This document shows, in pieces, positions 2,569 to 25,900 of a stretch of DNA of 64,000 nt; within the stretch, counting starts at the first letter, position 1, and every line of letters starts with the position of its first letter. The notes beneath the pieces are model-generated. The model saw nothing but the letters and a program-made list of their open reading frames with translations, did not search any database and had not been told where the DNA came from. The DNA lies in contig OZ025876.1 of NCBI GenBank assembly GCA_964019415.1, forward strand, positions 2,999,772-3,063,771, in the 5' to 3' direction. Origin of the DNA: Ianthella basta (lineage: Eukaryota; Porifera; Demospongiae; Verongiida; Ianthellidae). A program made the translations under genes and the position numbers.

Positions 2569-5500
2569 ATGTCTCTTTATTCCATAATTTCCCGTCTTTG
2601 GAGCGTTCGTCGACAGTTGGAAGAAGTCTTTGAACGCCCCAAAGGGGCGAAGAGCCGCTTGGAAGTTGATCGATTGCTCGACCCAGTACGGAAGACTATT
2701 GATCTCGAGTTGAAGGAAGATGTGCTCTATGGCGGCGACAGTGCACTTTCGGAGGTCTCACGGGGCAGCGTGCCGCTAGACTACGGGCTTCAGATTGGTG
2801 TGGATGAGTTGTGAGTGTCATACACCTAATATCAATGCAATGAGAAGTGTACGTAGTTTCCTCTTTTTAGTCTTTTAGACCTGTTGACCTGCCATGGCCA
2901 ATCCCTCGTGCTCTGTATTTCTGCAGGGATCTGAGCAGCCGTGGGTTATTCTCAGAACTACCATGGCCAGATTCCACCAACAAGGTATGGCGCGCGTACA
3001 ACGGGGGGTCTGGTAGGCAGATCAATCAGGTTGCAGAAGCAAGCTTTTGTGGCTTAATAACGATATCCATCGATGTTGGACAAGAGAACTTACTGATGTC
3101 AGGAAAGAAGCATTTTCAGCTATTAAGGAGTTGTGCATGTACATTGGTTACAGGTTCACAGTGTACGTATCAGAATGAGCAGTGAAGTGAAATGGGGTAC
3201 TGTAACCCAGTGACTCAGCTGCGCATGGGCTACACAGTCAGATGTGAAATGCAGCTCCAATGAGCAGCAACTTCACCTGTTCACTCATTGAGGACATATT
3301 CCAGTATATCATGCATCTACAGTGACCACAGCTGGCTCACTTAAGTGTGCCGTCAACTTTGACGTACCCAATGGTCTATAGTCTGGCACAGCCAAGCCCT
3401 CCTTTCCTGCCTCCATTTTCTCGATGACATCATCACAAGGCAGGAATGGGGTCTTGTATATAACTCAATGTTGCCAGTTCTGACTATGCTTAGGCTACTA
3501 CTTTACGTTTTAAATCAACATTCCTTTAGGTGATAAATGAATAGCACAGCACAAGAGAGGCCAGTGGGCTAACGACCACAGCTGAGTGGTGGTTGATGAA
3601 TCCACGCACTCCATGGCAACCCAGGAATGTGTCAGGCCCACATAGCTAGAGTACCATTTAGTAGACTCCGCCCACCTAAAGGTTTCAGGTAGGTGGAGGT
3701 TACAAAGGGGCAGTCTGGCTATGTGTGTGAGACAATAGGGACTGTGAAATCTGACCAGACCCATCTCCAACCACGATTGTAAAATAAAGTCATTAAGAAA
3801 TAAGGGTTGGATATGCGATTAAATGTTGTCTATAGTATTGTAGAACTGTTACATGTGTATGAACAGTGTGTGCATGCTCGTGTACCCTTATCTTGTGCTT
3901 ACCTTGTGTTGCTGTACGTATTAGTGTTGTGATGTCATAATTGGTTTTGTATGCGCATGCGCAGTGCTTTTGACCTCAGATTTGGAGGGAGTCAATAATT
4001 GTGTTCCGTGTTACTGTTCGACCCGTGTCCGCCTTGCGAAACGCAGCGCACCAGTTACAGTATAAACACCAGTTTCATGCTGGTTCATGTCCATTTTGTT
4101 CACAAGATTTCGTGATGACGTAGAATAGCTATAGCTATTTGTAGTGACATTGACATGTTTATATACTTTTTAAGATGGTCTATGTACCATGCATGGTGAC
4201 ACGTATGAAAGATAACGTTCGGAACTACACATGGTAAGGAAACAAGGGGGAAAGGGAAAAATGGCAGTGAACTGGACCAGCACCTCCAGATCTTTAGCCG
4301 ACCCTTTAGCAGCCGGGTCACTGGTCACCGCCAACAGCCACTGATACATTCTCTCCTTATATATCGATGTAGCTACATACATTCTGAAGCCAATTTGTAG
4401 ATCTTTGCTTATGGGAGTGGGGAATGTATACGCACTTGTGGTCCACGTTGCCTGTACTGTTCCTTTGTGGGTGCTGGTGTGTGGCATATCTTACAACCAG
4501 CCAACCAAACCTGTATAAACTTCAGCCTGTTTCCAGTCTCAGAAGTTGATTAGCTGATGCAATTCAATCCTGTTTACTTATTCCCTGGGCTGCTTTGGTT
4601 GTCTGTACTAGGTGGAGTGTGGAGTTTTGAAGGCAGCGGCTGAAGGAAGGTGGGAGGAGATCCAGCAGGTGTTCTACACACCTAGTCAAGAAGCAGTAGT
4701 GCTGAATGTGAGGAACAAGGTGATTTGGACAGAACAATGCATGCAGTCCTTGTCTTTACTGGTGAGTTTTGAATTTTTGTGCACTTTCTTGTTCAATGCA
4801 GTTTGGCTGGAATCTGCTTCACACTGCTGCCTTCCATGGCCACTTGAATTTGGTAAAGAAGCTCATCAAGGTGTGCAAGCTTTCCCCAGAAGCGCTGAGC
4901 AAGGTACATCCAGATGAACTGCTTGCATACATGCCTACTAGGAGACACATGGACTTTATATTAACATACATATTATGGCAATGCAATGCCATTAACGTTT
5001 CACCGTCCATATATGGTGTGTTCTCTGCACTCAACTGACATTGTGTGTTGTCCTTTCCATCTGGTAGCACCACTGGACACCACTTTTTGCAGCAGCATGG
5101 TCTGGTTGGAAGGAAGTTGTTGAATACCTTCTAAAAGTCCAGCACTGCAGCATTGCGGTCACAGATGTGGTACGTTGCTAGGAACTTACAAAAAGTTTGT
5201 TGTATATTGTGTTGGCCTTTGTTATTTCATGCCATTGTACCGTCTATTCCCTGTCCCTGCCGTGCTTGCAGGATGGCCACACTCTCCTCCATGCTGCTGT
5301 GAGAAGTGGTAACCTTCAGCTTGTACAGTGGTTTGTAAAGGTGTATGATCCAGTACCCACTGTCACTAAGGTTTGCCACATACTTTCTACTTTCATATTC
5401 ATAAACTTGCTTGATCGGAATGTGCATGTTTGATGTGCTCCTAGCACAGTATAATTTAGCTGTTTAGCTATGTGATCATGCTTGTTGTAGTGCAAATGTT

Positions 5501-18600: not shown

Positions 18601-21600
18601 AACAGTATGTCATAATTACACAAGCACAGATGCATACTTATAACAAATATCAGCAATTTACAATTCACGTTGAAGCTAGGTAATGTTATAGTGCTCCATG
18701 TGGGAGCAGTGAGCCATTGCATGTCTGCACTGTCCCACAGTCCCACTCTGACATTACCATCTCATTAGTGGTCACTCACTCTTGCTGGTGAAGTGAGGAA
18801 TTAACTTGGTTCACTGTCTCATTGTCCACTGCATGTGTCATAGTTTGTGCCCCACACTTGCAGTATGGTTGTGGTGCAGTACACCTGGCATGTATTAGTG
18901 GTCATGTCCAACTTGTGAAGACACTGGTGGAGGAGTTTGAGATGTCACTAGATATCAGAGACAATGTGAGTGTCTTGACTGTACATGAGTACACACCTTA
19001 GATGGTGAGAAGCATGCTACATTATATGTATGTATGTATTGTAAGAATATAAAGGAGTATTTCAAAGTTGCATAATTATTGGTATTCTTACTGGATCTAA
19101 AGAGATACATTTAACACAGTTTGACCATTGCCAGTTGTGTTCTTTTAGTCAGCTGAAGCATAGATCCTATGGTTGAAGTGGAAGTAATGTTTGTGGCATT
19201 CGTTAAACAGGCAATGACAAGGGTACGTTAATTAAACTGAAGTTGCAACTTGTATTGTATTAACTTAAGTGCTGTACTTATGTTACAAATGCGTCTTGAT
19301 GTACAGTAGCGATTAAAACTACTTAGCCAAACAACACGATCAGTCAGATGCATGTGAATGTGTACTCATGCAAGCGAAAGTGGCACTCGTGCGAGTGAAA
19401 TTGGCTCTCGTGCAAGCAAAATGGTCGACGTGCTAACTAAAAGCTATTTACCGGGTGCGAAATTGTATGCCAGGTGTGATCTTATAGAGTGAATTGGATG
19501 TGAACAGCAGAGCGAAGATATGCCTACCCCTCTATTAGCCTTTTATTGACAGCGCATTGTTAGTTTGTGGACGCAGGGCCATAGTATCACCTCCATCGTC
19601 AGGGTTCTCGGCGCGGAGGGAAGAGAGACCATGCGAACAACAGTGAGGAAGTGGATTTTACATTGAGAGAAGCAGGGTGGGCTGGAAGACAAGGCACGAT
19701 GTGGACGACCGTCCAAAATAACGCGTGAGATTGCGACTACCTCAACGAGCAGTTAGAAGACGACAATGAGCTGTCCTCCGTCGAGTTACAGCGCCTCATG
19801 GCACGGAAATTCGCTGTGGAACTCAGTCCTCCAACCATAAGAAGATACCTACGAACAACCTTGCAATGGACTGTTGTAAGGGCGAGATTTGACCCCATGA
19901 ATTCCGAGAAGAACAAGACGAAAAGCTTGGAATTTGCCAAGATGTGCATAGACACCAATGATGGCTTCAGTAATGTTATATGGACAGATGAATCTTCTGT
20001 TCAGTTAAGGAGACACAGCCAGACAATGTGCGTAAAGATTGGAAAAGAAAGAAAGCTGAAGCCACAAGCCAAACACACACTCAAGGTTCCCGTTTGGGCA
20101 GGCATTTCCATGAGGGAGCAATAAAAATTTGCATATTTGACCAGGTAATGGATGCATAGGTTTACATTGGGATTTTGACAGACCATCTCTTGCCATTCTT
20201 TGAGACGAAGTACCAGGGCAGCGAATACAGGTTCATGCAGGACAATGACCCAAAGCATACAAGCAAGAAGGCAAAGGAATTTTATTAGCAATAGGGAATC
20301 AATTGGTGGGCCATCCCAGTGAGTAGTGCTGACATTAACCCTATTGAATGGGTATGGAGAGAAATAAAATTCTACATTGCCCGTCATGTGAATCCATTGA
20401 CAAAGAAAGAGCTGGTAGACGGAATCAACTGCTCCTGGAAGAAAATAATGACTCGAGCAAAGTGTATCAGATACATTAGTCATACCCACGATGTCCTTCC
20501 AAAGGTAATCGCAAAAGAAGGGGGTATTACAGGAGAATGACTGACTCACTGAACTGTTTTACTATTTCACCATCGCCATTAACTTTTCCATATTTACATC
20601 AATAATCCTATGATTATACTGTCACAGTGTTATCATGCACGGCTAACACAATTGGTATAGTAGTGATGCATATATTTGGTTGTGGACAGTAGCAGGTGTA
20701 GGGGATGCAGACAGTAAAGCAATAGAACTGGATGTTATAGCTGTGGAGGCATTATTGCCAGGATGCATGTGTGTGATTCTACAGCTGAAATGTCCAGTTC
20801 AATATTATACTTGCTACATCATTCCCAATGCAGCCATATGGGAGTTTAGTGCACAAGCATGCATGTGCATATAATGGTGAATGATGCATCATTCACTGGT
20901 GGACTGCATTGACCATGAGTACAAGTACTTTCACTGGTACTGGTGATTAATGTTCCCCATTACTACTAACATAATAGTGAACACAGTGCAGGAGAATGCA
21001 TGATTCCCTTATGGTGCAGCATTATGGAGACTGAGTGCATATATACTGTGATGTGTCTGCTTCCAGGTTCAATTTCCTATACTCAAGTGAGGAGCAACTG
21101 AACAACAATCATGTACATGGAAGAGAGTAATATTACAGAGAGGGTGATAATGAATGAGAGTACCTTCAAAACATGCGTGCATATGTCTTCTTGTACCTCT
21201 TGAGCTGACGACAGCTACTGTCTATTGCTATTTTGTATTCTTTCCATATGGTTTCCTCTTCGTCCATTGGTCGAATTGAGTATATGGCATGGAGGGCTTC
21301 CTTTAAAGCCCTCATTCTGGTTGGAGACAATTTCTTCTTGCCATAATGATGATCTCCTGCACAATTTGAAGTTGATCACTCTTCCTTTGAATACACTTTC
21401 TTTACTAGCTGCACAGCAAGATTTCGCCTAGAGTTCGCCATCTTGTAGCACTGATCGATGACCTCTCTGCGTATCTTCAGTGGTGGTCTGTGCTCATATT
21501 CTATAAACACCTCTTCGAAGTCCACCCAGTTGTTGTCTTCTTCGGACTTTGTATCTTCACTGGGCCGATGCCTCTTGGGTGTACAGGGCTGATGTTGTGG

Positions 21601-22900
21601 GGTGCAGCATTGTGGGTGCAGGGAACTTGAGCAATGCATAGCTTGTAGTGGGTGGGAGTAACAATGGTGCGAGTATGGATGGTAAAGGGGATGAGGCAGG
21701 ATGGGGCTTAAAGGGTGCGAGTGGGTAGGAAGCGAGTAAGGTGAATATTGAGAAAACGGATGCAGAGAAGAGGGAGGGTAAGGCAGCTGATGTGAAGGAG
21801 AGTAGTCAGTTTGTTGTAGAGAATGGGGAGGACAGATGGGCTGATGTACAAGAGGAAGGGCTTAATTGTTGATGTGTAGGAGGAAGGGCAGGCTGATGTG
21901 TGGGAGGGAGGGTGGGCTGGCATGTAGGAGAGACGGTAGGTTGAGGCAAGGGGTAAACAGGTTGGTTCAGAGGAGATGACGGGGAGGCAAACTGATTGAA
22001 GGGAGGTGAGGGGGAGATCATCTGATCGTTGGTTTTGTCCTGCAAGGGTATCCTCTTCTGGTTGCTGTTCTCTACCAAAAAGGCACTGACATCGATCACA
22101 CTGTCTGTAGCAGGAGAACCACTCCCTAGCCACAGTGGCTTCTGCTGCTTCTTGTAAGAAGGACAGAGAAAGCAGGATGAACCATGCTGCGGCTGAATAC
22201 TTCTATAGAACGTTTTCTACAGGAATACCATCTCTCTATACTTACGTAAGTAATTACACAGCTATACGTAGATATGCGTACACTGATACCTTGGCTGCTT
22301 TCTTCTTTCTGCTTGCATTGTTCTCTTTCACTGGCTTTTGGATCTTTGATGTCTTCTTCTTCTGTTGAGGAGGGGCCCAGTCCAGCAAATTGGCCACATT
22401 GCCGCGGTAGCACTTGGCATTGAACCGCACCACTACTTCTGCTCCCACCATGATCTTCGCCAGCTGTCCAATAATGTGCTTCACATTTACACGGTTGATC
22501 TTGCCAGCGCCATTCAACTCTAGCCATATCACAGCGATTTCATTTGGCTTACAAGGCATCTTCTTCCATTCGGAAACAATTTCACAGGTTAGACAATTTC
22601 GCACGTTCGGATGCCTACTATTATAGTATTATAGAATTCAATGCTAATAATAATAATAATAATGTGTTAACATGCGAGTGAATACCACACTCACACGAGT
22701 GGATTATCCACTCGTACGAGTGAATTTTGTACTTGCACAGTATCTGTGAGCTAAACGTGACTTTATGGCTAGCTATTTTTAATCGGCACAGTATAAAAAC
22801 ATCATTGTTCACTTACTGCAATGAAGCACATTCACAACAATGTTCATGACATTGTAATGCAAATTAAATGAACACAACCCATGTCATTGATGATTAATGG

Positions 22901-22951
<51 letters not shown>

Positions 22952-25900
22952 TGTGATGTACAGGTTAATTACTAACTGTGTGCTGTATTGACTATGCCCC
23001 ACCCATTCCTCAGGGTGGCAATACCCCTCTGATAGTGGCTGCTGAAATGGGTCGCCTTTCAGTGGCCAGTCTCCTGGTGGAGACGTACCACTGTAATGTG
23101 AACGAGGAGAACAAAAAAGTGAGTGAGAATGCAGTATTCATAGTAAAGTAAAGTGACCTCAGGCCCAATTCCTGGCAAGTAATCTTATCACTAAAGAACT
23201 GCTATTTTGCAAGCACTGTACAATGTCATTAAACTGATGGAGTACCTTACTGTATGTTTGTTTAGGTGTTGAATTTACTGCACAACATCTAGTACGTATG
23301 TGTACAAGTACAGTGATTTGTATTGTGATTACTGCACATCTCGGGATGTCGTAGCTCAGTGGCTAGAGCACTGGCAGCTAAAGCCAGATGTCCTGGGTTC
23401 AATCCCCGACGGCGCCACTTTCATTTCAGCCCTATGTCATTTCAAAGGTCTATGGACAGTGACGACGCCAGTTGTGTCTTGTCAACACGTTGCCAAGAGG
23501 TCTTCGGACTGAGCCTTCTTCCATCGTGCCTGACTTTGGACGTTGTTCTTTTCCAACGGCCTAGCTGTGTTTACACTTAAGAATTTCTTCCTGCAACTGA
23601 TTTGTATTGTGTTTACTGCACATTTCCATTAGTAAGTGTCTTCTACATGTGAAAGTGATTCTTGAGCTACTCGTGACTGCATGCCTATGGTGCATTCTCT
23701 GAAACAGCCGGCTAATGGAACATATAGCTAATTTTCCTTCCTTTAATTCCTCTTACGTACATTGAGCTGTCCCAGAGAACCCACTTTAGGCATACATTTG
23801 CAAAGAGATTGAGAATCACCTTTCACAAGCATGCACACACGTAGAGGATACTTCAAGACCTTGCCATTACTCCACACTTAGCCTCGGCGGTGCAGTGCTT
23901 TCGGTTGCAGCTTGACATCTAACCTATAGCTGGTACATACAGTAAGGAAAGGAAGGGTGAATGTTCACTGCCAGGATGAGTGGCTCGGTGGCTGAAACTC
24001 CACAACAGAGGTCTCATGCAGGTTCGATTCTCAGCTATCTGGCTAATTTTCCCTTTCTGTCCACTCACTTTGAGCTGTCTTAGAGAACCTACCTTAGGCA
24101 GTCTGTACATGTGTACAGTGATTATAATGGGGTTTACTAGCATGCATGTCTCTTGAGACAGTGAGGTGTTGGGTAGTCTTTTGTTACTGATAATGTTCCT
24201 CCTACTGGCCACAAACAGTACCATACCCCTAGGGTATGTCTAGTGACAAACTGGCACCCTTCTCTCACCCCACACCCTGCTACTGTACATGCACCAATGT
24301 GGTAGTGAACAATGTGATGTGATGGTACGAAGGTGACAGTGTGCTTTGGAGGCAGAATGTGAGCTATTGTAAAGGCTCATTACTACATCATATGTAGAAC
24401 TTGAAATGGGGAGATTGTTAAGCCGCTCCACCCACCCACCCCCCCACCCCTCCCCCCTTTTCAAGCATGTGAATTCCTGTATCTCTGTGTTATTGCACTG
24501 TTCTCTCCCGTAGTCACAGACACCAGTAATGTATGCTGCAGGGTATGACCACCTCCCTGTACTGAAGATGCTGGTGGAACATGGGGCAGATGTGTTTCAC
24601 AAGACACATGTGAGTCACCTCTGAATTGGGTACACACAACCTGCAGTACATTAAGAAATTGCTACATACGTACTAACATTGTACACAGACTTCAGCCACT
24701 GTCCTTCACTTTGCTGCCCGTGGTGGATCCCTTGAGTGTGTCGAGTACCTGCTGCCTCTCTTTGGAGAGAAGGCATATGAGGTGGAAGATGGTTGGACAT
24801 GCCTTCACTATGCAGTTGCAGGTGGTAGCCTCCCAGTGATGAGGTATCTCGTGGACCAGTGCAGATTTGACCTCAACATCAGAAATTTGGTGAATTGTGT
24901 AGTGGTATAGTATATTGTGTATACCAGATCTAATTTGGTCACATTCACATGCTGTATGCATGCACACTCCTCACACAAATTTACCTACTGTATATGGTCA
25001 CACTCTGATACAGTACATATACAGTGCTCGGGAAGCCAGTATAATTTAAAATGCCCACTGAGAACATTACCTAATTCTGTAGTGCGGCATGTGGGAGCAG
25101 TGAACCATACATGAGTGTACTGTCCCACATAACCATCTTACTAATGGTCATTCACACTTGCTGATTACCAAGTGGTAATAATGCACTCATGGGTGCACAC
25201 ATGTGCATTAGTGCAGCCTTACAATTACATGCTAATACACAGACCTTCTATGCTTTTCACTTACTGACTTGACAGTAAGTGAACTGACTTGTACAGTATG
25301 GAATGTCTCTGTGGAAAGTCTCTGTGCTCCTCAAGTGATGCTCATGTATAATTTACATTTGCACTTACAGAACACACCTGCACACATGGTTTCAGGTCTG
25401 TCTGCCGTCAGTAACCCTTGATGTGTATAGCTTGTGTTTCTGTTCAAGGGTAATGTCATGTCTACCAACCTTCCTTCAGAATGGCCAGGACTGCTTCCTG
25501 TTGGCATGTGAGGAGGGCCATCAAGAGATTGTCTGTGAACTGCTCACTAAAGACAAAGTGGACCGGAATGTGGTGGACTATGTGAGGAATTAACTCAGTT
25601 TACTGTCTCATTGTCCACTGCATGTGTCATAGTTTGTGTCCCACACTTGCAGTTTGGTTGTGGTGCAGTACACCTGGCATGTAGTGGTGGTCATGTCCAG
25701 CTTGTGAAGACACTGGTGGAGGAGTTTGAGATGTCACTGGATATCAGAGACAGTGTGAGCTTCTTGACTGTGCACAAGATCACACCTTTGAGGTGTGATA
25801 TTTGCCGTGTGTGTAGTTGTACGTAGATATGAAGGAGAAGTTAACACAGTTGGATACAAAGAGATTTAATGTAACTTAATTAGTCCATATTTGGTGCTTT

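Follow-up and report, generated by a model that had tools for sequence, protein, structure and literature searches.

Tc1/mariner elements are the standard example of transposons that work with one protein, and gene-transfer tools are built on them. The usual Tc1-type member is 1.3–2 kb long and carries one gene. In the window, the 64,000-nt stretch of Ianthella basta DNA analysed here, a first-pass annotation had placed a Tc1/mariner-like transposon at 19304..22791 and, in its right half, a second gene that encodes a BEN domain and converges on the transposase. Does the BEN gene belong to the element, and if so what does its product do there? Relatives of the element were sought in the 209-Mb assembly and compared with the window copy. 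The TA flanks, inverted ends and transposase pieces ascribed to the element were all found, and the element has the following ends and, in its left half, the following gene.

19304..22791, no strand: whole element, with TA at 19302-19303 and 22792-22793; ends read, inverted repeat
19304..19329, plus strand: left terminal inverted repeat (CAGTAGCGATTAAAA...), from inverted-repeat comparison with ends read
22766..22791, minus strand: right terminal inverted repeat (CTGTGCCGATTAAAA...), from inverted-repeat comparison with ends read
19520..20540, plus strand: decayed Tc1-type transposase gene beginning MPTPLL..., with stops and frame breaks; start inferred from the conserved ATG of relatives

Positions 19302-19329 and 22766-22793 pair as an imperfect inverted repeat (28 nt, 79%, TA included). 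Taken alone this repeat is weak (self-BLAST E about 1.5). The relatives whose ends were read are bounded by ends of the same kind, TA followed by C[AT]GT...GATTA, and in these the element is 3.2–3.5 kb long. The subfamily E copy L012 sits within a GTGTACAGTGTGGGGT-type tandem array (L012:180-900 and 4127-4620), where it entered at a TA of the repeat unit and has TA on either side.

The transposase fragments in the window bear DDE motifs that are still readable despite the stops and frame breaks, and they score below the Pfam cut-offs (HTH_Tnp_Tc3_2, 20.1 bits; DDE_3, 14.3 bits). Since the window pieces alone score below these cut-offs, the element was identified through its better preserved relatives. 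The intact relative L017 matches DDE_3 (E 1.8e-14) and HTH_32 (E 1.6e-12), and the L071 transposase matches DDE_3 (E 3.3e-21). An N-terminal HTH region is present in both (HTH_32 at 48.2 bits in L017, which is over the cut-off, and at 35.0 bits in L071). The second D and the E are 34 residues apart in L017, L071 and L072, as in DD34E transposases, and the transposase matches the catalytic domain of Sleeping Beauty in sequence (E 1.7e-21). The family is thus like Tc1-type DD34E elements such as Sleeping Beauty in its TA target duplication, short inverted ends, DDE_3 domain and HTH region. It differs from the usual Tc1-type element in its length and in its additional, conserved BEN gene; a transposase as sole gene is usual in Tc1/mariner, though not strictly defining. 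By the features tested, these sequence comparisons confirm 19304-22791 as a decayed Tc1-type (DD34E) transposon with an additional conserved gene.

The convergent, spliced-looking gene that had been proposed for the reverse strand of the right half was recovered as a two-exon gene with its N-terminal module, proline-rich linker and BEN domain.

22290..22559, minus strand: BEN gene exon 1, N-terminal module and basic stretch, open
22151..22289, minus strand: BEN gene intron, GT...AG, phase 0, predicted from the window and subfamily B sequences
21166..22150, minus strand: BEN gene exon 2, proline-rich linker and BEN domain, with a frame break and a TGA
22028..22054, minus strand: short conserved linker motif (RIPLQDKTN), D-box-like
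21169..21543, minus strand: BEN domain region with one in-frame TGA (21376-21378)

The predicted window intron is 139 bp long and its GT/AG phase-0 junction is common to the window and subfamily B; the BEN genes of subfamilies C and D each consist of a single open exon. The BEN piece of the window reaches 14.7 bits against a Pfam cut-off of 23.2. Relatives above the cut-off are L018 (24.7 bits), L020 (31.6 bits), L071 (30.6 bits) and L015, while L060 stays below it (16.2 bits) and L028 gave no match. In the profile check suggested by the first-pass annotation for the BEN and DDE domains, several better preserved relatives pass the cut-offs and the decayed window pieces do not. The BEN domain also matches the solved chains of BEND3 (E 1e-9) and BANP (E 9e-5). 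In contrast to these two proteins, with which it has the BEN domain in common, the element protein is transposon-encoded and has a different N-terminal module and linker.

No confirmed relatives of the N-terminal module were found in the prokaryote-genome or viral collections. Weak phmmer matches to Piwi (E 0.014) had raised the possibility of a PAZ domain, which was rejected when they vanished with a profile search. Weak profile matches were obtained to ProQ_C for 3/12 members (best E 0.001), to PriA for 6/12 (best E 0.0069) and to MORC2-chromo for 1/12; they are a hint at some small beta fold. Single-sequence structure models were poor for both the module and the BEN domain (mean pLDDT 54.9 and 52.9, respectively).

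Taken by itself, the window would also fit an unrelated BEN gene that had come to lie inside a single element by accident. The closest copy, L009, lies 120 kb away, is about 97% identical and is the sole copy at that level. Its flanks match those of the window copy (98.7% over 1500 bp on the left, 97.7% over 1315 bp on the right), which rules L009 out as a second insertion and makes it a segmental duplicate. Because the flanks are shared, the block must have been duplicated as a unit, and independence rests on the other copies. Ankyrin-repeat reading frames lie on both sides of the element (window 18792-23151) and the block recurs at L009; the element between these frames probably lies in an intron.

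Five copies elsewhere, L015-L019, form subfamily B. They are 68–74% identical to the window copy in aligned pieces and each has both genes, which are open in 4/5 (L015, L017, L018 and L019). The L018 transposase is open from the conserved start and its sole in-frame stop lies upstream of that start; in L016 the transposase is open and a stop falls within BEN exon 2. The right side of L019 reads N, and 12/12 comparisons among L015-L018 gave no flank match. L016 is adjoined by a reverse-transcriptase frame (RVT_1, E 1.1e-32; L016:4952-5692). The same layout of matches was seen in subfamilies C (L020, L021, L023), D (L026, L028), E (L012, L014) and F (L022), with the N-terminal module match missing in L023 and in L014, where it is cut by the stretch fetched.

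To count the association, a subfamily-B transposase was used as query and its 108 matches were merged into 95 loci, the counts for large families being lower bounds. Of the 47 loci that are ≥55% identical to this transposase, 39 have a BEN match within 3.5 kb. The match is downstream and convergent at near-constant spacing in 38 of the 39, and upstream at 3,489 bp in one. Among the eight close loci without a BEN match only two reach 800 bp, and both hold in-frame stops. Chance proximity of a BEN match is about 0.5% per transposase locus. The first-pass annotation had held that copies with the same ends and no BEN gene would mark the association as an accident, and the 39 of 47 close loci speak against one. 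Order, strands and spacing are alike at dozens of sites, and both genes lie within the terminal repeats. Accidental nesting is therefore ruled out by recurrence, by unrelated flanks and by the position of the genes inside the inverted ends, and we give it practically no credence.

The association extends to distant relatives. Below 55% identity, 26/48 loci have a BEN match within 4.5 kb when additional BEN queries are included, or 24/48 once two same-strand neighbours are dropped. Two of the 22 distant loci without a BEN match were read (L072 and L073), and both carry a BEN-like gene. Layout and sequence divide the distant loci into three clades or more, and transposase identity is 35–45% in the deeper clades that carry the pair. 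The BEN gene is upstream and head-to-head in clade II (L060, L061), and downstream and convergent within inverted ends in clade III (L071). L072 and L073, which are 98% alike and count as one lineage, make up clade IV. Each has a convergent gene of 357–358 residues with a similar N-terminal module (E 0.1), a stretch that by eye is probably a coiled coil, and a BEN-like C-terminal region. In a Pfam search this region stayed below the curated BEN cut-off; when nine sequences were searched with the clade I BEN profile, it matched weakly (E about 4e-5 and 2e-5). With the BEN gene between the inverted ends of the element at unrelated genomic sites, these results show that the two genes together are an old and integral part of the element, and that the association is deep.

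An integral gene may still be passive cargo of host origin, carried without use. BEN genes without a nearby transposase match do occur in the genome, for example at L059 and L062. The L059 frame (473 residues, minus strand, L059:1304-2740, G000:C16:2333603-2335021) has HTH and BEN ends: its N-terminus fits the transposase HTH profile (33.5 bits), and its C-terminus gives 18.9 bits with Pfam BEN, below the cut-off, and a strong match to the clade I BEN profile. With one full-length match in the genome, L059 is possibly a host gene made of transposon parts. L062 has a 401-residue open frame (L062:1460-2662, minus strand) that probably forms a coiled coil and whose C-terminus fits the clade I BEN profile; it gave no Pfam BEN match and no transposase match nearby, and is possibly a host BEN gene. 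Against the cargo reading, dN/dS between subfamilies, from measurable pairs and with synonymous change often saturated, is 0.06–0.19 for the transposase, 0.08–0.35 for the N-terminal module and 0.08–0.26 for the BEN domain. These ratios show, at the level of codon comparisons, that both genes are under purifying selection between subfamilies. Within subfamilies the ratios are mixed (0 to 1.46), with few changes behind each. Because the BEN gene is under selection and recurs in deep clades, and a motif in its linker is conserved, we consider carriage without use very improbable.

The transposase and BEN trees concur on a split of subfamilies C, D and F from A, B and E, where A is the subfamily of the window copy. 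The transposase tree places A with E and rejects a clade of A and B (AU p 7e-6 for protein, 1.5e-4 for DNA). The BEN tree places A with B, and a clade of A and E has an AU p of 0.086 for protein and 0.03 for DNA. The groups were picked after the distances had been seen, so these p-values flatter the result. It is probable that subfamily A arose by a swap of halves, with its transposase half and its BEN half coming from two lineages. In Harbinger elements the trees of the two genes are largely congruent with occasional exchange, according to the part of PMC9179366 available to us.

A look for cis sites singled out two stretches inside the terminal repeats.

19385..19396, no strand: left subterminal palindrome ACTCGTGCGAGT, with degenerate neighbours 21 bp off at 19364-19375 and 19406-19417
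22689..22721, no strand: right subterminal palindromes ACTCACACGAGT (22689-22700) and ACTCGTACGAGT (22710-22721), 21 bp apart

Palindromes of 12 bp, ACTCGTRCGAGT, newly described here, recur with a spacing of about 21 bp at the left and right ends in subfamilies A, B and E and in the non-autonomous relative L025. Subfamily B has them at element positions 60 and 81 on the left and has two on the right, 21 bp apart. Subfamily A has them at 61, 82 and 103 on the left, the outer two degenerate, in addition to the right pair. Those of subfamily E are similar and less perfect, and D has one, at one end. Eleven genome places match the right end of the element (query 3065-3488; G000:C4:6579574 and ten more). 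One of these that was read, L025, is an internally deleted derivative of 918 bp that keeps both ends and neither gene; its aligned parts are 73–76% identical to the window copy, and five perfect palindromes are spread over its two ends at spacings of 22, 21 and 20. Allowing at most one mismatch, A, B, E and L025 have 1–3 palindromes per end, compared with an expected 0.001–0.0015 for their two ends together; across shuffled ends in general the average is 0.001–0.004 for both ends together. Elsewhere in the window, over 60.5 kb, none was found within one mismatch. The palindromes are absent from the ends of subfamilies C and F, and across all subfamilies perfect palindromes of whatever sequence are not enriched at the ends. 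The core TCGTACGA also occurs in a 22-bp tandem array upstream of the clade IV transposase. Clade III has GTTAAC-containing repeats close to both ends, and clade II a 34-bp tandem repeat in 22 copies downstream of the BEN gene (L061:2261-3023).

ACTCGTRCGAGT consists of two ACTCGT half-sites and resembles BANP sites. The available passages of PMC10206803 give the BANP optimum in vitro as AAATCTCGT, also written AAATCTCG(T), and the cellular site as TCTCGCGAGA, and assign base contacts to S313 and R316 in the last helix. A BANP crystal contained a 12-bp palindrome (PMC11472053, seen in part). Clade I BEN domains have D, S, R and R at the spacing of BANP D312, S313, R316 and R320, so that the BANP DNA-contact residues appear conserved in a mapping that is our own, made from the residue names in the same part of PMC10206803. 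The match to BEND3 and BANP, the BANP-like half-sites and the D/S/R/R spacing make the BEN protein the likely reader of the sites. The recognition-helix residues are kept in subfamilies C and F, where the palindromes are absent, and the core is present in clade IV, where the BEN-like recognition residues differ. Because of these two mismatches, we attach moderate weight to the proposal that the element BEN protein binds the palindromes.

A different reader is conceivable. The palindromes may be inner transposase sites, as in elements with repeated end sites, leaving some other job to the BEN protein; their subterminal position and the presence of BEN without palindromes in C and F fit this reading. 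A Tc1 transposase, with its paired HTH region, is expected to read an asymmetric site. The palindromes, in contrast, are two-fold symmetric with BANP-like half-sites, and we think it unlikely that the transposase is their reader. The BEN protein could also be integral and bind the subterminal sites in order to act on expression, as an autorepressor, insulator or anti-silencing factor. The palindromes do lie upstream of both gene starts, and the BEN proteins described so far act mainly in transcription and chromatin in the portion of PMC10206803 consulted. However, five perfect palindromes persist at the two ends of L025, a copy with no intact gene for them to regulate, and their persistence speaks for a part in the movement of the ends. 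An effect on expression is accordingly a doubtful explanation in our judgement.

The reading we favour, by analogy and with somewhat better than even confidence, is a Tc1-type two-component system in which the BEN protein would be an element-encoded, end-binding partner like the Myb-like protein of Harbinger. Gene 1 encodes the transposase; the product of gene 2, which is convergent in most clades, runs from a small N-terminal module through a disordered linker to a BEN domain at its C-terminus. The BEN protein would bind the phased ACTCGTRCGAGT palindromes that lie directly inward of the two terminal repeats, and would probably do so as a dimer or oligomer. Once bound, it might recruit or position the transposase, or keep the ends accessible in chromatin. 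The first-pass annotation had suggested targeting or escape from silencing; end binding with recruitment is preferred because the palindromes are phased.

Among known systems, PIF/Harbinger is alike in having two genes per DNA transposon and a DNA-binding domain in the second protein (PMC9179366, in the part available). The present family has instead a transposase of another family (DDE_3 with HTH_Tnp_Tc3_2), a BEN domain in place of Myb/SANT, and TA flanks; it most likely works alike and is not a member. The ciliate TBE elements are Tc1/mariner elements with three ORFs, the extra ones encoding a 22-kD protein of unknown function and a 57-kD zinc-finger/kinase protein in the sections of PMC4724952 available, and so share the additional ORFs, which are not BEN genes. 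The present family does not belong with TBE/Tec: it has two genes, and no zinc-finger or kinase Pfam match was obtained in the relatives scanned. The earlier impression that no such family had been described agrees with the open-licence literature, Repbase lying outside this scope, in which no title or abstract opening that concerned a BEN-carrying Tc1/mariner element was found. A branch that keeps a DNA-binding partner over deep divergence would mean that even Tc1/mariner can turn two-component. Such a branch would be a system for testing the division of labour between transposase and partner, and would open one way for genes with a BEN domain to multiply and be put to new use in the genomes of eukaryotes.

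The linker that joins the two modules of the BEN protein has one more conserved feature. A core L-x-[DE]-[IVLK]-[TSN]-N was present in 6/7 linkers tested, clades II and III included, with surroundings that are otherwise repetitive, and was absent from the clade IV linker. Its shuffle probability is 0.0002–0.0036 for each linker, with a pattern derived from the same sequences. The APC/C D-box consensus is R-x-x-L-x-x-[IVL]-x-N. The R-containing form, a D-box by that consensus, occurs in 4/7 linkers, again with a pattern taken from the same sequences. An APC/C degron is one possible identity of this conserved motif, and it is speculative that a destruction box limits the BEN protein to part of the cell cycle. 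A tentative extension of the two-component reading, possible though short of probable, is that an ancient Tc1-type branch became an obligate two-protein machine. The BEN protein, possibly limited to part of the cell cycle by a conserved degron, would oligomerise on the phased palindromes and license the transposase, and L059 would be a host gene built of the same kinds of parts. The proline-rich linker itself is encoded by tandem repeats, with a 27-bp unit in 32 copies in L071 (L071:3203-4067). Its length differs among the subfamily B copies L015-L019, and exon 2 of the four open ones encodes between 311 and 416 residues.
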